Both the position numbers and the translations under genes were made by a program. Shown here piece after piece: positions 26,365 through 60,087 of a stretch of 64,000 nt of DNA. The first letter of the stretch is position 1. Each line of letters begins with the position of its first letter. Origin of the DNA: Saksenaea vasiformis B4078 (taxonomy: Eukaryota; Mucoromycota; Mucoromycetes; Mucorales; Saksenaeaceae); assembly GCA_000697055.1 (NCBI GenBank), contig JNDT01002383.1, forward strand, positions 1 to 64,000, written 5' to 3'. Below the pieces are notes generated by a model, which saw only the letters and a program-made list of their open reading frames with translations, was not told the DNA's origin and ran no database searches.

Positions 26365-28405
26365 CTATGACACATCTTCCGTTACTGCATCGAGTGCTTT
26401 AGCAAACATAGTCAACAGTCTCGATCGATCTTCCAGACCAACACTCACACGCACCAAATGTCTTGGCACGTCAAATTGTTTTGCCCACTCCAGTTCCGTA
26501 TAGTGCGCTAAAATTGTATAGGGACACGCCAAGGTAAAGTTGGTACCCAACGAAGGTCCTTTAGCACTTTCAAGATGATCATAGAACTGGGCTGCTTGCT
26601 TCTCATTGGAAAGAACCATTGAAAATAATCCACCATAGCCACCGTTTGCAGTTCGAACAGCGTCGTAGTTCTGTCGACAAATATACTTGGGATAATACAC
26701 CGTTTGAACTAAAAATATATATATATAAGAATTGAGTATGTCACCTATGTTCCTCTTTTTTTTTTTCTTTTTACCTTTAGGATGATTTGACAGATAATCA
26801 CAAAGGGCCTCTGTATTATCATTAATGATTTGGGACCGTTCCTTAAAGGTTCTTGAATTGCGTTCAAGAAACACGGCATCTTCACCCCACATCAGATCTT
26901 CATAATCTAGGCTTAATTTTTGTTGTAATGTTTCATAGTATCGTCCACGAGGATTCAGTACCAGACTAACAACAAAGAAGATAAGTAGTGCTTCTTCTTC
27001 CATCTCCAATAAAAACTCAGCTTACCTTCCACCCATGACATTACTATCACCGGAGAACACTTTGGTCAAACTACTCACAACCATGTCTGCATATTCCAGT
27101 ACATGAACATTACAAAAGTTGCCAATCGTTTCATCCACCACAATAAAGAAATCGTACTTGTCTGCCAATTCTCGAAGACGTTTGAGATTGGGTGATTTGA
27201 GAAGTGGATTGGAAGGTAGCTCACAAAATAAACTTAAAATGCGCTCGCCTGATGCCAACAAGGCCTCCAGTTTCTCAATATCCTGATCTTCTCCCAAACC
27301 ATAGAAATGACAACCAGCACCAAATTTTTGCAGAATCTTGAGGGTATCCGTGTAAGGAAATCTAAAAACTCCAAGTCATTCTTATAGCTGGCTGTAAACT
27401 TTCCTTTTTTTTCATTTTTTGTCATTTTACCCGAAGCATGCACTTTTACGTGAAGCATCTCCTGTTGCCAAAGCATAACGATGTGCGTGGAAGATGGCGC
27501 TCATACCGCATGGATAAAGGTAGACTTCATCTTCTGATAGACCCGTGATACCACGTTCTCCTTGACGTTGACGTTGTTCTTGGATAGTGCCCTCACATCC
27601 CGCTTCGGTAATGACACCGGCAATACGACATCGAAGAGCATGTTTGGCACGATCCGCAAAAGCCACAGGTAAATTACGACCATACCGTTCTTCCACATAA
27701 GTCATCATTTGATCACCACTTTCTTCTTCTTCCTTCTCCTTGGCAACCTTTTTTTTAGCACCACCAGATAACCGCATGTATCTTCCGCCATGTTTCGGTT
27801 TTTTGATTTCAATATGCTCTGCATTGGCCTTGGGTGCCTCGTCTAATAGTTTTAGACTGTACTCCGCCATACGTGATGATAAAATATCTCCCGTATGTTG
27901 CCAGAACTGTTTGGCAATAGGGAACGCGTCTTGCGGAAAAAGAACAATGTATACTGACACGCGTTGCAGCTCACCGGAACGTTCCGGAGGAGGTGAAATA
28001 ACGAAATCAGCAATACGGATCTTGTTCTTCCCTTCCGTGGCATGTTCATCATAATAACGTTGCATAAACTCGCGACAACGGTTGGCAACTTTTCGTGAAG
28101 GGAATAACATGCAAGATTCCGTCGGTTTACCGAACTTTGACAATAACCGCTCACTCAACTAAAAAAAACCTCCTATGTCAGTTGCATCCTTTTTTTTTTG
28201 ATGAAAAAGAAAAAGGAACCTGTTTGATAAAAGGGTGGATAAAGAACCGAGGATAACCACATTGCATTCGTGAAGTGACCCGAGGATCACCTTCTTCATA
28301 ACCAATGTTGTCCTGCCATGTAGGAAGCATGACAGACACAGCATGTGGCGTATGTGCCGGAATACTAGCACCTACTTCTTTTGGAGGCTCAGGAACAACA
28401 ACCAT
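26365..28405 (-). CDS. STR2: Cystathionine gamma-synthase (STR2 type), PLP enzyme
   Basis: Five exons, 28405-28220, 28158-27431, 27361-27026, 26965-26775 and 26708-26365, join to 1,785 nt (594 aa), close to fungal STR2 (~600 aa, longer than bacterial MetB). The enzyme makes cystathionine from cysteine and an activated homoserine ester in transsulfuration. The Cys/Met-metabolism PLP fold is clear: [16 protein letters not shown] (PLP phosphate side), [11 protein letters not shown], the aspartate of [10 protein letters not shown], and the Schiff-base lysine in [10 protein letters not shown] (K405). The C-terminal domain ends with [13 protein letters not shown]. The start ATG at 28405 is the first in frame. 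The ~200-residue N-terminal extension is typical of the fungal enzymes. The gene looks intact. Confidence 0.92.
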
Positions 28406-28709
28406 AACCAAAGACTGTTTTTTTTTAAAAAAAAAAAAAAGAACAAAAAAGAAATCAAGGTTGTAAAGCTAAAAGGAAAAGATAATAAAAAAAAAAGATC
28501 CAGAGTGACACAAGATCCTGCCTTATCATCTCTATCCAATCATAGGCCACGATGGCCAATTGCATGCTCACATTTTTCTACTCCGTCGCGACAACTAAAG
28601 TTGGGCGCGCCTGCGGTGTCTGTGGTGTTGTGCGCCAATGAAAGTAGCCTGTTAATCTTCGGATGTTAAAGACAGCAAATAAAATCGCTCAGTTAATCTT
28701 CGGACTTCT
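28406..28709. promoter_or_regulatory. Divergent promoter between STR2 and a small ORF
   Basis: A 304-bp divergent spacer has an A-tract at 28427-28440 and a second A-rich tract at 28488-28497. A CCAAT-type word (on the minus strand ATTGG, from CCAAT at 28538) lies in the middle. No transcription factor site is assigned with confidence. Confidence 0.35.
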
Positions 28710-28946
28710 ATGGCGACGGAGCTCCAAAAACAAGCTTGCTTCTTGCTGTCAGCTATGAACACCCCGCAAGAGCAACACAACGACCACATGCATCATGAAG
28801 AAGTATTCGCTTCCGTTGATGCCAACGTTTCAGAGGAGATTTTAGAAGAAGACGAGGTAGTAGCAAATCTTTTTGAGCTCTATTTCCAGCAATTGCAGCA
28901 AAAAATGAGTGGCGAAATGAAGAAATCTACCACACCAGTGGTGTAA
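28710..28946 (+). CDS. Small acidic protein, unknown
   Basis: An uninterrupted ATG ORF of 78 codons begins MATELQKQACFLLSAMNT. The composition is acidic in the middle (SEEILEEDEVVANLFELYFQ), with a predicted amphipathic helix and a short basic tail. It is divergent from STR2 and lies 0.6 kb upstream of the Fanzor locus on the same strand. I recognise no family. The even composition and its position in a promoter-like setting favour a real gene, but the evidence is thin. Confidence 0.4.
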   Translation: MATELQKQACFLLSAMNTPQEQHNDHMHHEEVFASVDANVSEEILEEDEVVANLFELYFQQLQQKMSGEMKKSTTPVV

Positions 28947-29590
28947 CGACAACCGTTAATGGTATACAAGAATCTAACAGGCATAGAGGTTCTTAATCTT
29001 TGTTTCTTTACTGTTAAATATTTTCCGAGACAGTAAAATGGATGGTAGGCTAGCATATGAGTTGCACAAGCCAATTGCGTTTTTAAAAACGCATAATCAG
29101 TATTCTCTTGATCCAACGTGATTGTATTGCCCATGCCTAATCTGCCTTCTGAATTCTGAACCTATCTATTCGAAATATTCAAAACAAAAAAAGGTCTTAT
29201 GGTCTGGATGACTGGTTCCTGGTCAGAGGACCCAATGACAGAGAAAATGACACTTCTTATCATTTTCAATTGGTACCAATATGAAAGTTGTAGAAAGATA
29301 TCTCTCGGTCACCGTCGCATAATTCTGGACAGATTGCTCTTGTGCTTATCCCAGTAGTTGCTCGTATGTATATTTGAATGTAGCTGTCTGTCAATACGGC
29401 GTCATTGACAAAGATAACTGCCTGTTCGCACTGGCCATACCTTGCTGAAAGGCTCAGCAGACACGGAGGCGCAAAGTGTTAGTCTAAGCAGCGTCCCAGC
29501 ACGCATAACAAAAGAAAAGTCCTACGAATTCACATATATTCCATCTAACTATTTGACAACAAATCTCCTTTCCTTTTTATCCGCAAAGAC
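28947..29590. other. Intergenic, upstream flank of Fanzor locus
   Basis: About 640 bp without a supported gene. It contains a perfect 16-bp palindrome (annotated separately). An open plus-strand frame from 29442 has no ATG and is used only from 29673 as coding sequence of the Fanzor gene. I could not find terminal inverted repeats or a target-site duplication by eye. Confidence 0.4.
29077..29092. repeat. Perfect 16-bp palindrome
   Basis: GCGTTTTTAAAAACGC is its own reverse complement. It lies between the small acidic ORF and the Fanzor gene. It could form a short hairpin or be a transcription end; no second copy was found near the other end of the Fanzor locus. Confidence 0.6.
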
Positions 29591-32500
29591 ATGGACAGAC
29601 AGCAAAACGAAGTTGGAGAGCCCCCGCCCCCGCAGGAGACGGTATGGGTATCAGGAAACCCCCCTCTCGCAGTTGCCTGGTCGCGACTACTCATTTGTGC
29701 CAAAACTGAAGCTTTGCAATTTTCTGCGGGAGGACCGCAAGCAACTCAGGGTATTGTACTATGGAATTCTCATGTAAACTCTTTCAAATATATTAAGCAC
29801 AGGATGATATAGGGCGTTCTTCGTTCAGTGGCAGAAGAATATGCAACCGCCTGTCAGTGTGCGATGCTGTTGGTCAATTTACATGTCCATCGTTGGATTG
29901 ATGGCTACTTCGAAACCTTTCCTCCTGTCCATGAAGAAGTGTTCTTTATTTCAGCGTTTAAAATGATCTTGACACGAGATACCGGCACAAATGTTCGGGT
30001 AGCGTTTGTACGTAGCGATGTTAGGAAGTTATCAGAATAAACTAAGTCTGCTCCCATGATCAATAGTCCAACTACCGCTGGTGTTTCGATCTACGGCAGA
30101 CTTTCGAGAATTTCTTTGATACTTGCAGAATGAACCCAGCGACGGGAGAAGGTATACGTGTAAATTTAAATTTGTAAGGCTAAATAAACTTATAACTTCT
30201 GCAGAAAACTACCGGTTTCCCACGTTGACATTCGTGATGAGAGAGCTGGCCCCGTCATTTGCGGGAAAATAGTCAGCAGTGAGTGAAACCATCTGAAAGA
30301 AAAACGGACACAAACTTTTGCATATTTGTAGACACTTACCTGCATATTACGTCTAATCTGGAAACATACATGAAGAGAACCTTTATTGCTTTTTTTTGAT
30401 GACCTGTTCGAAAATCACCAGCAGGATCAGCGGCAGAATGGAAGAAGTTTAGGTATCACTCCATAGTTTAACATGTTTACTCTATATTGCTTACGGTATA
30501 TCGCCTTGCTTCCAATTTGTAGCATCCAGATGTGTCCAGGGAATAACAGCACAAGAACTTTTTGACCGTAGTGCATGGACAACTTTAGATGATGATTCAA
30601 TCACCGACCTTGAAGTCTTTTGTGGGTATGACAAGACAAGATATCAACCTATTTTCTTCTTCACGATTGCTTACCGTTGGGAGCTTCCTAGAGAGTTTCA
30701 GAATGTTTACCAGGAGAACCTTGGCAATGTCAATATAACCGCAGACCTCAGTGATGACGAAAACCAGCGGTTGCTTCCTTTTATGCTTCGCCTCTCAGCA
30801 TTGATGCTTAAGCAGACAAATGAACTCAATGGAAAAGGCTGGACCCTTGTTCCAATGGCTAAAAACCAGATAGGTAAGCTGGAACCCGGTGACCTTCTTT
30901 GAACCATAGTATGGGCTAAGCAATAATACTACGCTAGGCTACTTCCCCGTAACCGGTAAAATACTTTACTGGGCGCTTAAAGACATTACCACCAATCTCT
31001 CGGAAAATCTAGCAGTAGGTATCTCGTAAAAAAAAAAGCATAGATTGACCGAAGAAAAAATTGACACCCTTATGTTAGTGTCCTTTGCAAGGCTTTCATA
31101 CCTTCAATAATGCGCTCAAGGACATGATATGCCGCGAGCGACTTTGGGAAGCAATTTTCTGTCTTGATAGAGTCATGCCCCGCCGCCGCCGGGCACAAGG
31201 TTTGGTTATACTCAACCGCATGGAAGTAACATCATTACATTTTTCATATAAGGGATAAACAACAATGAGCTACCAGAGGTAGAGTTTGATTGTGGATTTG
31301 AGACGGATGGTGTTATGGTGGCAGTCAGATTTAAATCTCGCAAACCAAACCGAGGTCAGTCCAGTCTTTGTTTTACCATGAAGCACGTTAACGCAAAAAT
31401 TGCATCTCAGCATCTTATCCGTCCTCTCAAAGAGACTTTCAGTTCCTTCCTCGCGACAGGGATTTCTCTAATCTGCAACATGGCATCTATCATTTGAAGA
31501 AAGAACCAAGGGGCTTAACAGCCGCGCGCGACTTAGATCCTGACATAACTCGTATAGTGGGGATCGATCCTGGTATGCTACTTGCTATAGGATTCAACAA
31601 AGGCTACATTTATATTTCGCAGGTATTCGTTCGCTTGTAACCGCTGTGGACACGGAGGATGATCTCCATGGGGAAGAGGCAAGAAATAGTCATACATTTA
31701 CCATTACGAACGATTATTATCAGTAAGAGAGCAATATCCCGTACATAGCCAGCGCAATAACTGCGTATTTTTTTAGATCCAGCTCCAAGTTTAACTGGAG
31801 CCTTCAGCTAGAAAGGAAGAATCGTGAAATCGCCGATATGCAGGAAGTCTACGATCGTCTATCGGAACAATCTAAGACGGCTTCATCTGTTCCGGAATTC
31901 CAACGATTTCTCACGGCACAATTTACTGAAAAACAGAGGTAACTGCAGAATACTACTAGCATACGTGGTCATACTAAATTGATCCTTTCCAGGACGGATG
32001 AGTTCAATCGTCATTATAGACACAGGGAAAGACGTGGTTGCAGGAATCTTCCAGAAGTATGACCATGGATGTTATCGCAGACCAGGTCGGGGGATTTTAT
32101 CCCAATTCAACCCTGGTGAGCATTTGACTACTTACTCTTCGTTCATTAATTATATTTCTGTTTCAGCCTCCAGTTGCAAATGTGCAAAAACAGAATAAAA
32201 AATCACGGTATCGCCAACGTCGTCAACACCGTACGGCTCAAAACAGTAGACGTGACCAGCGTCGAGCGCTTGCGGCATACGGAGATGCCGACCTGCATAG
32301 TGGAGGTTACAAGACGTATGCACCGTTACCAGTGAAGGTGAGAGTGTTAAGGTTTTCTTGGTAGTGAGAACCCTATTAATATTCATGGTAGACCTTTCGC
32401 AAGGTTCTAGCACGGCGATGTCCAGTAATGTGCGTGGACGAGTACAAAACCAGCAAAGTATGCAGCATATGTCATCACGACACAGTTGACTTCCGTGACT

Positions 32501-33107
32501 ACAACATCCTGCTGTGTAATCATCGGTATGTTTGGGAAACGAATGAAAATAATGAAGAGCTGACCGGTACGAACTAATCTCCAGCAAAAAGTATATCAGA
32601 CGTCGGAACCATAAGCACAAACGTCAATATTGCTTAGATGACGACAGGCAGATTCTGAATCTTAGCAGTGAATGCCCCAATAGACGTCGACCAGGTATGG
32701 TCTAGTCCAGCTTGTATACGTCTTGCTCTAACACAGAACAGCTCGCAATGATTACAGAAATATTGTCTACCCTATCCGGCTGTGCCCTCAGTGCGCGTAT
32801 GGTAGACAAGGAACCAGAACATCTCTAGTAAGTTGTGCCGGTAGACGTAACACAAGGATTTCTAACTATTTGATTAGTTTTGGAATAGAGATGTTAATGC
32901 CGGACGGAACATTCGTGATGTCTTTGTTCGCTACATCGAATCTGGATGCCAATTGACATCTCGCCCGGCAGCACTGTCCAGGACAGTTCGGCAGTAAGGA
33001 ACTGCTCACTCGTCACTTTGTATGACAGGTGAGGACGGGGTCTAATTTCCGCAAATGATCTAACAATCGGAGATTTCAGGGCTACAGACATGGTCACGGA
33101 GCCCTAA
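29591..33107 (+). CDS. Fanzor (eukaryotic TnpB-like RNA-guided nuclease), multi-exon, possibly decayed
   Basis: Fanzors are eukaryotic TnpB relatives: RuvC nucleases guided by an omega RNA, often carried by transposons. Best-supported exons: 29673-29750, 29813-29998, 30067-30151, 30205-30278, 30332-30452, 30523-30873, 30938-31018, then further short exons to 33107. In order: an N-terminal helical region (LVNLHVHRWIDGYF, EEVFFISAFKMIL); the wedge-like strand FDCGFETDGVMVAVRF (31287-31334); RuvC-I IVGIDPG (Asp codon 31566-31568), interrupted after the Pro codon by an intron; AAYGDADL (32275-32298); VDEYKTSKVCSICHHDT, with the first zinc CxxC; RLCPQCAYG, with the second CxxC; and RuvC-III WNRDVNAGRNI (Asp codon 32890-32892). 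A TAG at 30270-30272 and a TGA after the T8 run at 30390-30397 break the frame unless unusual introns are used. The exon at 31993-32115 also needs a frame change or a 47-nt intron. The ATG at 29591 needs a 31-nt intron, so the start is uncertain. Confidence 0.85.
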
Positions 33108-33220
33108 AGTTCATCTACGAGATATCAACAGCAAAGTTGAAGAGACATTTACTTTGCTAAATTAAGCTATTTTGTGTTGAACCCTGAGTGAACCTTATGA
33201 GAAGAAGAAGTCTTTTCTTT

Positions 33221-33260
<40 letters not shown>

Positions 33261-33684
33261 CAAGGGAAGTTGGGTGTGTTACATTGATCCAACCCAAATG
33301 AGTAACAATGACGGGGAACGCATGAACCAACCGTAGTACGTACTTACTGGGATGATCGATGGTTTAGACTCAACAGTCCTTAAATAAATAAAATCATCAT
33401 TTTTCTGTTCCCCCGCTATTCCCAGCGATACCTTCCTCTTCAGAGAGGTACAAGTGAAGATGATAGTGTAGGCATCATTCATGTTCTAACCATGGACAAG
33501 GAAGATAATTCGCGACAAAAAGCTGGAAATGTTTCGTTCACCTCCAATGGGTTCCATAAACGAGAAGAAAGAAAAAGAAGAGAAGGATGTTTCATTTTTT
33601 TACATTGCTTTAAATATTTAATACACAATTGTTGTTGTTTCTTTTTTCGTTTTCTTTTTTGTACATAGAGTAAATTACCTCCTT
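33108..33684. other. Convergent spacer between Fanzor and DBF4
   Basis: These 577 bp contain the T35 tract listed separately and no coding feature I can support. The part just after the Fanzor stop (33108-33220) is where an omega RNA would be expected by analogy with other TnpB/Fanzor loci, but I could not recognise one. Confidence 0.4.
33223..33257. repeat. Homopolymer T35
   Basis: Thirty-five consecutive T residues, preceded by short TTTTC units from 33211. It is the longest mononucleotide run in the window and sits 116 bp after the Fanzor stop. Confidence 0.95.
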
Positions 33685-35296
33685 TCACAAAAACACGTGG
33701 TGGTACTTCTCCCAACTATCATGTTTCACGGGACTAGCAGGTACCTGGTTTTTCTCCCCTGATTGCTCTAGTTCTTCGCGTCTTCGCTTACTGCTTGTTT
33801 GGAATTGAACGTCTGTCCCATCAATGTTGGGGTGTACTGACTGCTTCATAAACTCCGGAAGCGGCTTCTTGTACTGTCGGCGGGTGGTATTTAGTATAAT
33901 ATCCAACTCTTTAAAATTATTAGAGTCACGTATAAACGTTTGGTGGGATTCTTCTTTGACATGCTATTCTCCGCCCAATCAATAGATGGATAAGTGATCT
34001 GGAAAATGTTTTCGCTTGATCTCCCGCAATTTACCTCAGCCATTGATTTAAATCTAACTTTACAATTTTCACAGTAGCCCATCTCATAATCTCGTGGTAT
34101 CCGCTGTGTCATGCGTTTCTGCGCTGGACGGGTTTTGTCGGCATGACGTTGTTGGCCGCCGCCCGTCTTCTCCGTTAATGCCTGAGGCGGCGCCTGATGA
34201 TGCTGATGGTTTTGAATATTTTGAAGGGTATTATCGAACACACGTCGCTGAAGGCGGGTCACATTTTCACCAAGAGGATTCCGCCGACCATCGGTTTGTG
34301 CGATAGCTGATCCTGATGTAAATCGTGATACTTGCGTCTGTGTCTGCAAAGATTGTTGGAATCCTGAAGCTTGTAAATGAATAATCGATGCAGAATCTTG
34401 ACGCTGCAATGGTGCCATCGGCATATTTTCCTTATCTGCGCAAGGCGCCTGAGGTGTGTGTTCCGCTACAGCGAGTGTAGCCGCAACATTCGCCTTTTGT
34501 GCATCTTTCGCTGTCTGGGATGACTGAGCTAAGGACTGTGCAGGCGGACCAAAAGGCGATCGGCCGGGTGGGGTATCCTTGAGGTAAGGCCATGGGTGCC
34601 CACTACCAGCGAACGATGGATCCACAGGAGATCGCCCGTAATCCCGGATCACAACAGGTCGATGAACTCCCGTCATATCTTCCACCATCACATAAGGTCC
34701 CTGAAAACTAACGTAATGTGGACGTTGCGACGCACGGCCTGTACTAACACCATATCTCTTTTCATCCTGAAGTAATCTATCTAGCTCCTTCTGTTTCGCA
34801 GCTGGTTCTGGCCTTCGTCCCGCACTCGGTTTCTCCACAAGGTACTGAAGAATACCCACCAGTTCTAAACCAACCATTAGTTAGTTCCTTCCACCATTGT
34901 TAAATAAAACCGGTCATTTACTTTCTAGACTCCATGTCTTCAATCCCATTTTCATGGCTTTCGAGACAATGTCGTCTGCTGATGCATTGTCTTGTGACGA
35001 TGGCAATGGGCGAGTCGTTACCAGATGCGTACATTTGGCTGAAAAGAATGGCTCAATGGTCTAGGATGGAACTTAGCTTCGCCTAGCTTTTTTTCTTTCC
35101 TTTTTTTTTTCTCCAAGTGTTTTATTACCGCTCCTAAAAGGGCTAAACGTCCCTCCAACCGTTTTTTCCTGTGATCATCAACATTGTCCAAATAGAACTT
35201 GTATGTAGGAAATAACTTCCGGTAGCTCTTAGTCCATTCCTCGCTTGTTGCTGGACGATTCTGTTCAGTCGGATCGCGAGGCTTCAGAGCTTGCAT
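33685..35296 (-). CDS. DBF4: DBF4/Dfp1, regulatory subunit of Cdc7 kinase
   Basis: Dbf4 activates Cdc7 (Hsk1) to phosphorylate Mcm2-7 and fire replication origins. Four exons, 35296-35129, 35060-34922, 34864-34035 and 33963-33685, join to 1,416 nt (471 aa; S. pombe Dfp1 545, yeast Dbf4 704). Motif N (BRCT-like) is seen as WTKSYRKLFPTYKFYLDNVD, then LGATIEPFFSAKCTHLVTTR at residues ~20-76. Motif M is PYVMVEDMTGVHRPVVIRDY near residues 155-178. Motif C, the zf-DBF zinc finger, is GYCENCKVRFKSMAEHVKEE with a second His in SHQTF, near residues 365-393. The intron falls inside the zinc finger. A Gln/Pro-rich disordered region separates M from C. The first in-frame ATG is 35296; upstream codons of the open frame lack ATG. 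Confidence 0.93.
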
Positions 35297-58861: not shown

Positions 58862-60087
58862 ATGAAATTGACTGCAAGCATCGCCGCTCTCTTGGCTGTC
58901 GCCACCTTCGGATCTGTTGAAGCCGCTCCTGTCAACGGCAACCAGGGCCAGCTCCACATTCCTGTCTCTGGCAACCCCTCCTTCACTCGCAATGCCACTG
59001 CTAGTGTTCTCCGCGCCAAGTCCAAGTACGCCAAGTACGTCGCTCACTCTTACTCTGGCACCGGCGTTGTGCCCATGACCGACCATCTCTACGACGTTAT
59101 GTACTATGGTGAAGTTGAGATCGGCACTCCCCCTCAGAAGTTCAAGCTTGACTTCGACACTGGTTCCTCTGACCTTTGGATCGGTAAGCCTATCAAATTT
59201 TTTTATTCCCTTAGAATTCTCACTAACTCTTTAATTCAGCCTCTACTCTCTGCACTAACTGTAGCCCCAAGCAGACCAAGTACGATCCTTCCAAGTCCAC
59301 CTCCTATAAGAAGGATGGTCGTCCCTGGAAGATTGGCTACGGTGACGGTTCCCAGGCTAGCGGTATCCTTGGTACCGACACTGTCAACCTTGGTGGCCTT
59401 GCCATCAAGGGTCAGACCATCGAATTGGCTAAGCAGATCTCCGGTAACTTCGAAGATGGCAGCATTGACGGTCTTCTCGGTCTTGGCTTCGACTCCATCA
59501 CCACCGTCCAGGGTACCAAGACTCCTGTCGACAACTTGATCGAGCAGAAGTTGGTTGACAAGCCCATCTTTGGTGTCTACCTTGGTAAGCAGTCTGAAGG
59601 CGGAGGAGGTGAATACGTCTTCGGTGGCTACAACAAGGATCACGTCGCCGGTGAATTGACCACCGTCAAGGTCGACAACTCGCAAGGCTGGTACAGCATT
59701 ACCGTCGACGGCTCCAAGGTCGGTGACAAGCAAGTTGCTGGCTCCTTCGACGGTATCCTCGACACCGGTACCACTCTCTTGCTCTTCACCGACTCCTATG
59801 CTAAGAAGATTGGTGCTGCCTACGGCGCTAAGGACAACGGTGACGGTACCTTCACCATCGACTGTGACACCTCCAAGCTTCAACCCCTTGAGTTCACCAT
59901 CGCTGGTGCCAAATTCCAGGTTCCCTCTGATTCCCTCATCTACACCAAGTACCAGGGTCAGTGCATTGCTGGTTTCGGCTATGGCGGTTTGCCCTTCGCC
60001 ATCATTGGTGACACTTTCTTGAAGAACAACTATGTCATCTTCAACCAGGCTGTCCCTGAGGTCCAGATCGCCGCCGCTAAGCACTAA
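58862..60087 (+). CDS. Secreted aspartic protease 2 (rhizopuspepsin-like, A1 family)
   Basis: Two exons, 58862-59183 and 59240-60087, give 1,170 nt (389 aa). The protein has a signal peptide ([20 protein letters not shown]), a propeptide with [17 protein letters not shown], and the catalytic motifs FDTGSSDLW (D99) and [11 protein letters not shown] (~D282). It shares [20 protein letters not shown] and the same C-terminal block [19 protein letters not shown] with the enzyme at 50.5 kb. The single intron is at the same phase-1 site after DLWI; the two other introns of the paralogue are absent. Codon use is strikingly C-rich at third positions compared with the paralogue, suggesting high expression. 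It probably arose by local duplication, and both genes keep the same orientation. Confidence 0.95.

Follow-up and report, generated by a model that had tools for sequence, protein, structure and literature searches.

A decayed Fanzor gene copy in Saksenaea vasiformis belongs to a multicopy transposon with an asymmetric CCG motif in the left flank of most insertions

The window analyzed here, a stretch of 64,000 nucleotides from the Mucorales fungus Saksenaea vasiformis B4078 (positions 1 to 64,000 of contig JNDT01002383.1; part of contig C643 in our numbering), contains a gene whose motifs had been ascribed, in a preliminary description made from the sequence, to a Fanzor RNA-guided nuclease captured between housekeeping genes. 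The Fanzor gene is real; it belongs, however, to a decayed copy of a 4.5-kb transposon that occurs in dozens of copies in the genome. Taken together, the data make it very probable that the locus is a decayed copy of a Fanzor1-type DNA transposon. What is new is that, in two Fanzor families, most copies have a (T)CCG motif in their left flank that is asymmetric and usually separated from the element by 16-17 nt.

Results

The Fanzor gene resides in a repeated element

The genome searched comprises 38.7 Mb in 666 contigs. A 47-amino-acid query from the zinc-ribbon exon gave 80 matches, all Fanzor families together. When the DNA of window positions 29500-33300 was used, 42 matches were obtained, corresponding to at least 40 places including its own (the matches on contigs C632 and C5 each come in two pieces); this figure is a lower bound, as 40 of the 78 candidates were scored. 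Most copies stop sharply at GAGCC or a near variant and are followed by unrelated flanks. The right-end pattern was found at 38 places, 27 of the window type and 11 of the sister type (see below), versus none for a reversed control. A leftward search showed that the sequence common to the copies begins near position 28603. The element is therefore about 4.5 kb long and spans positions 28603-33103. Its left end reads GGGCGCGCC in the window copy and GGCTCGCC in most copies, and the terminal inverted repeat is short, about 5 bp (GGCTC/GAGCC), and slightly altered in the window copy.

The window copy is flanked by two identical 8-bp sequences. Among 14 copies with both flanks available, nine showed an 8-bp duplication matching at 7 or more positions, versus two of 182 cross-pairings between copies scored under the same rule, which allowed a shift of a few bases. 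The limits previously given for the locus, 29591 to 33107, begin correctly at the initiation codon but run past both the stop codon and the right end of the element.

The left arm (28603-29590) contains subterminal repeats with the core TTAATCTTCGGA. A small open reading frame (ORF) in this arm had been presented as one of the flanking housekeeping genes. It lies inside the element, and we rejected it as a gene: the ratio of nonsynonymous to synonymous polymorphism (pN/pS) was 0.88 in its frame, indicating no coding constraint, and in 10 of 20 copies this frame runs for at most 33 codons. The other two frames of this stretch gave ratios of 0.47, which is unexplained, and 0.85. Six longer ORFs (65-119 amino acids) in or overlapping the left arm matched no Pfam family over the cut-off. 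From these two lines of evidence no transposase was recognized in the left arm. Copies L015, L017, L021, L022 and L023 form a subfamily with about 370-394 bp of extra sequence in this arm.

The encoded protein carries the Fanzor signatures

The motifs GIDPG, YGDADL, VDEYKTSKVCSIC, RLCPQC and WNRDVNA all lie on the plus strand of the window, in the order announced by the preliminary description. In the spliced product of copy L018, the DPG of RuvC-I is present within GIDPG (D481), and the displaced glutamate, E685, lies six residues before the first CxxC, which starts at residue 692; a catalytic Glu displaced to six residues ahead of this CxxC is the mark of Fanzors according to Yoon et al. (PMC10711439, in the part available). 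The protein also fits the pattern D-X(125,275)-[TS][TS]-X-X-C4-X(5,50)-RD given in the accessible part of Bao and Jurka (PMC3627910), with a D-to-TS spacing of 206, cysteines at 692, 695, 764 and 767, and RD at 782-783. None of 20000 shuffles of the protein contained the ordered pattern. A Pfam search returned the Cas12f1-like TNB domain (PF07282) with an E-value of 2.9e-4, and the same domain passes the curated cut-off in a related Fanzor family of the genome (27.2 bits).

Profiles built from three, and later four, family sequences were run against 177635 PDB sequences. With three sequences, Fanzor1 of Parasitella parasitica (PDB 9cf0-9cf3, Xu et al. 2024, PMC11423790) came first and SpuFz1 of Spizellomyces punctatus (PDB 8gkh, Saito et al. 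2023, PMC10432273) second, with E-values of 0.0059 and 0.38; with four sequences the same two proteins were the top matches (0.0022 and 0.046). The alignment placed the Glu of VDEYKTS opposite the Glu of LLDEYKTS in SpuFz1, and the WNRD motifs of the two proteins were aligned as well. With the D of the SpuFz1 WNRD set as D606, this Glu is E541 by chain numbering, and both residues are named catalytic in the consulted portions of PMC10432273 and PMC11423790. Signatures and top matches thus agree with the earlier identification of a fungal Fanzor, and the alignment with the proposal that the Glu of VDEYKTS occupies the displaced catalytic position. Homology to known Fanzor/TnpB proteins is weakly suggested by these comparisons.

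An 18-exon gene maintained by selection and broken in most copies

An exon chain derived by a gene finder from the window copy alone was rejected and replaced with a model set by hand from the alignment of 17 long genomic copies. This model has 18 exons and 17 introns and covers window positions 29591-32997; the window introns are 47-70 nt long with GT-AG borders, in keeping with the many exons and short introns anticipated. Two of the 17 copies (L018 and L019) have a fully open 817-codon frame with all GT-AG sites. In L015 and L025 the frame is open and one donor is lost in each. The remaining 13 copies, the window copy among them, have frame breaks or stops; L020-L023 carry a single stop only, with L022 additionally lacking one acceptor. 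The window copy as sequenced is broken by length differences in exons 1, 4, 5 and 13. Three of the four lie in or beside single-base runs and the fourth lies outside any homopolymer.

The ratio of nonsynonymous to synonymous substitution rates (dN/dS) was calculated for 21 pairs from seven copies, L025 being excluded. It was 0.12-0.30 in 20 pairs and 1.11 in one very close pair. The low values in 20 of 21 pairs indicate purifying selection on the protein during the spread of the family.

An asymmetric motif in the left flank

Left flanks were compared for 26 copies of the window family (35 examined, 9 removed because the end was unclear). As a tendency, they consist of a T-rich and then an A-rich segment followed by (C)(T)CCG. 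In 13 of the 26 flanks the distance from the CCG to the element is exactly 17 nt, and in 20 it is 17-20 nt; this tally places the left end of the window copy one base later than the coordinates used here, so that the window copy is counted at 18 nt. Thirteen of 26 at one position corresponds to P = 2.6e-17, for a position chosen after the fact. About a dozen positions are biased. Between motif and element the sequence is almost uninformative, except for the C that opens the duplication and is found in 22 of the 26 copies. No comparable motif was found in 29 right flanks, where all that was seen was this C and, 34-35 nt out, a weak bias towards T/G. In the sister family, CCG lies exactly 16 nt from the element in five of six left flanks (8 examined, 2 removed). 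A pattern search for the sister-family motif found five places versus none for the control, a count that has no denominator and includes four places already in the set of six. Our searches, which covered open-licence papers, turned up no description of an asymmetric motif set at a distance from Fanzor insertions.

A sister family with an upstream DUF6729 gene

The sister Fanzor family (L073, L087; contigs C639, C416, C422, C475, C527, C532, C578, C657 and others) is 66% alike to the window family over the C-terminal 250 residues and has the same right end, GAGCC. The copy on C639, the one checked, is flanked by the 8-bp duplication GGGCAATG. The two families have the right terminus and the target motif in common, and their duplications were equally long in the copies seen. 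Upstream of its Fanzor gene the sister family carries a DUF6729-domain gene (E = 5.5e-11 for the domain in L087), which is frame-broken in L073 (C639). This domain has 26 matches in the genome, 15 of which overlap the DNA matches of L073 (at C133 and C355 only its left part). The loci outside this overlap, C566 and C493 for example, could be partner elements. No open-licence paper on DUF6729, alone or in connection with transposition, was found.

Other transposases were looked for as well. The Merlin/IS1595 transposase (PF12762) had no match in the genome, with a control that was positive in 1 of 14 genomes, and the KDZ transposase had none either, its controls being equally silent. The hAT dimerization domain had 50 matches, and no link to the element was seen. 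hAT transposons make 8-bp target duplications and have ends of the CAG/TAG type. The duplication of the element is of the same length, and its ends, GGCT/AGCC, do not resemble those of hAT elements.

Some features of individual copies and families were recorded in passing. L073 misses about 720 bp between its two matching blocks relative to other copies, and no match was found in it for protein residues from about 330 to 484, the stretch with the DPG motif. In L088 (C133:35400-35500) a sister-type left end follows a window-type right end after 6 nt, an arrangement due either to tandem insertion or to recombination. A third Fanzor family (L074, L083-L086), with 45-48% identity over the C-terminal part, differs in its right end; it had at least 49 matches from 40 scored candidates.

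A conserved 3' tail

Across the 17 copies, mean identity was 0.912 in the 3' tail, 0.895 in exons and 0.847 in introns. Three Fanzor families in this genome share a hairpin that spans the stop codon; its outer pair varies between G-U, A-U and G-C, and its inner pairs are invariant. Since the tail is conserved and the hairpin recurs, it is plausible that an omega RNA derives from the 3' tail, even though the fold of the L018 tail is not superior to those of shuffled sequences (z 0.62). The sister-family tail folds moderately better than its shuffles (z -2.10). An Rfam scan of positions 28000-34000 gave a lone match, to a CRISPR repeat model, which at 21.8 bits versus a cut-off of 36 was judged to be due to chance.

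Genomic setting

The features are listed in Table 1. The downstream neighbor is a DBF4-like gene, as the preliminary description had it, recognized through Pfam Dfp1/Him1; the other neighbor is an enzyme of Cys/Met metabolism. Farther away, an aspartyl protease (59227-60087) matches rhizopuspepsins with E-values of 4e-127 to 5e-124, the next protease being at 1.9e-41. By this one gene the host would probably be placed close to Rhizopus within the Mucorales.

Table 1. Positions in the window of the transposon, its gene and adjoining features
Feature	Position	Strand	Remarks
Target motif ACTCCG, left flank	28580..28585	+	17 nt between its CCG and the element at 28603; copy comparison
Left target site duplication CTAAAGTT (8 bp)	28595..28602	.	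8/8 identical to right one
Whole transposon, about 4.5 kb	28603..33103	+	Boundaries common to many copies with different flanks
Subterminal repeats, core TTAATCTTCGGA	28634..28704	+	Two in window copy; family D9; region varies among copies
Small ORF, judged not a gene	28755..28943	+	pN/pS and frame ends across copies
Fanzor exon 1	29591..29750	+	Start ATG at 29591; frame broken in window copy
Fanzor exon 2	29813..30007	+	Copy alignment
Fanzor exon 3	30067..30151	+	Copy alignment
Fanzor exon 4	30205..30278	+	Frame broken in window copy
Fanzor exon 5	30332..30452	+	Frame broken in window copy
Fanzor exon 6	30523..30873	+	Copy alignment
Fanzor exon 7	30938..31014	+	Copy alignment
Fanzor exon 8	31079..31199	+	Copy alignment
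Fanzor exon 9	31253..31354	+	Copy alignment
Fanzor exon 10	31411..31572	+	RuvC-I GIDPG; last codon split with exon 11
Fanzor exon 11	31623..31722	+	Copy alignment
Fanzor exon 12	31777..31938	+	Copy alignment
Fanzor exon 13	31993..32115	+	Frame broken in window copy
Fanzor exon 14	32167..32337	+	Conserved YGDADL
Fanzor exon 15	32392..32525	+	Displaced Glu and first CxxC (VDEYKTSKVCSIC)
Fanzor exon 16	32585..32694	+	Copy alignment
Fanzor exon 17	32742..32827	+	Second CxxC (RLCPQC)
Fanzor exon 18	32878..32997	+	RuvC-III WNRDVNA; stop 32995-32997
Hairpin GGCAG-TAAGGAA-CTGCT around stop codon, candidate omega RNA part	32990..33006	+	In three Fanzor families of the genome
Conserved 3' tail to transposon end, candidate omega RNA scaffold	32998..33103	+	Identity across 17 copies
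Right target site duplication CTAAAGTT (8 bp)	33104..33111	.	8/8 identical to left one
DBF4-like gene (Pfam Dfp1/Him1 central region)	33891-34880	-	Downstream of element

Discussion

We assign the protein to the Fanzor family and treat the element as a variant without a superfamily assignment. The presence of target duplications, which IS607 elements lack, and the PDB matches suggest that it is likely of the Fanzor1 rather than the Fanzor2 type. The best PDB profile match, Fanzor1 of Parasitella, also comes from a Mucorales fungus and has the motif DE[FY][RK]TS-x-x-C aligned; the match is nonetheless a weak one, confined to part of the C-terminal third, and the target-adjacent motif (TAM) reported for that enzyme in the available part of PMC11423790 is ATN. 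SpuFz1 is the protein of SPu-1 (PMC3627910), which, like the window element, is a Fanzor-only transposon that occurs in many copies, some intact and others decayed, and shares the aligned catalytic Glu and WNRD. As far as the accessible text describes it, SPu-1 has one open frame, inverted repeats of 30-33 bp, putative TA duplications and, immediately next to its left end, conserved bases, whereas the window element has 18 exons, inverted repeats of about 5 bp, an 8-bp duplication and a motif 16-17 nt away. Multi-exon Fanzor1 genes are known, with up to ten exons in Chlamydomonas, according to the same source.

Closer relatives by host are the Fanzor1 elements of Rhizopus, Phycomyces and Mucor (ROr, PBl, MCi), which encode proteins of the same group and several of which are presented without a transposase of their own in the part of PMC3627910 available. 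For Mucorales elements this part describes duplications of 9 bp with MuDr-type terminal inverted repeats, of 11-12 bp, or, putatively, of 6 bp, and it gives an 8-bp duplication for an IS4-type element of an alga. With 8 rather than 9 bp and an inverted repeat of about 5 bp, the window element falls outside the MuDr Fanzor elements of Mucorales. It may be identical to one of the four ROr families. No open-licence paper treating Fanzor in Mucoromycota by that name was found.

A number of observations weigh against the conclusion that the locus is a decayed Fanzor1-type transposon copy. The PDB profile E-values are weak, and single-sequence searches gave no match in the PDB and no homologue at E 1e-3 among 5.8 billion proteins; NCBIfam had no match for the C-terminal part. 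Profile analysis of the joined exons, which the preliminary description had proposed as a check, did return the TNB domain, but the full-length PF07282 score is under the curated cut-off. No clear duplication was seen in 5 of the 14 copies, and CCG is absent at 16-21 nt in 6 of the 26 left flanks. The poor fold of the L018 tail belongs here as well, and so does the fact that the DUF6729 gene is no more than a transposase candidate. Finally, both the joining of the exons and the omega RNA are predicted from the sequence, and the four frame breaks could in part be assembly errors.

This last point leads to the view that the window copy is truly intact and that its breaks are sequencing or assembly errors. 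Some of the breaks are possibly of this kind because three of them sit in or beside single-base runs, and some sister copies do have open frames. We consider this view unlikely for the copy as a whole: the fourth length difference lies outside homopolymers, and breaks or stops are also found in 12 of the 16 other copies, as expected for a decaying family. Another idea, a domesticated, single-copy host gene, could appeal to the ordinary neighbors, and it is close to the capture between housekeeping genes that had been suggested for the locus. That suggestion does not survive the finding of a transposon copy with an 8-bp duplication and relatives at 40 or more places; a single-copy gene is refuted by the copies in the same genome, the common ends and the target duplication, while the frame of the window copy is not even open, leaving such domestication a practically negligible probability.

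As to how sites are chosen, we favor a transposase supplied in trans as most likely responsible. The alternative is that the Fanzor itself helps to choose or cut the site, (T)CCG being its TAM-like motif and insertion occurring at the cut distance 16-17 nt downstream. The motif is indeed asymmetric and one-sided, and in two families many copies have it at 16-17 nt from the left end. Published Fanzors cleave 9-21 nt from their motif (for MmeFz2 the cut follows base 17-18 on one strand and base 9-14 on the second), and the motif of NlovFz2 is CCG (PMC10432273, from the part available). Against this, the biased positions number about a dozen, exceeding the 3-4 bp of known motifs, and the intervening bases are nearly free of information apart from the first C of the duplication. 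Right flanks are, moreover, in general unlike the targets of other copies. In 1486 comparisons one reached 13 of 14 matches, one reached 11 and the rest 10 or fewer, while 2229 shuffled comparisons reached 11; RNA-guided placement, in which the right flank of one copy would equal the target of another, was thus rejected for want of a general signal. The 13/14 pair, the right flank of C394 (L047) and the left flank of C396 (L068), beats every shuffle and is unexplained, but it is in reverse orientation, the opposite of what a guide needs. We therefore hold a choice of sites by the Fanzor to be very improbable, and give just as little credit to the related idea that (T)CCG is bound by a Fanzor complex or a Fanzor-transposase assembly. 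If either were true, the nuclease would place its transposon as well as protect it. A DNA-binding transposase acting in trans is the simpler target chooser.

We postulate the following sequence of events for the transposon with a trans-acting transposase. Intact copies would give rise to a spliced mRNA for an 817-amino-acid RuvC nuclease, and a transcript of the 3' tail running past the right end would provide an omega RNA whose guide is taken from the flanking DNA. The enzyme would then cut matching DNA, favoring persistence of the transposon. Because no transposase gene was recognized in the window-type element, mobilization would depend on a transposase in trans, which presumably picks sites some 16-17 nt past the (T)CCG motif; the upstream DUF6729 gene of the sister family is a candidate for this transposase or for a remnant of it. 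With its several families, intact copies and a candidate partner gene, Saksenaea would allow target choice, guide use and transposase dependence to be tested in one system, and the findings bear on what Fanzors do for their eukaryotic transposons.

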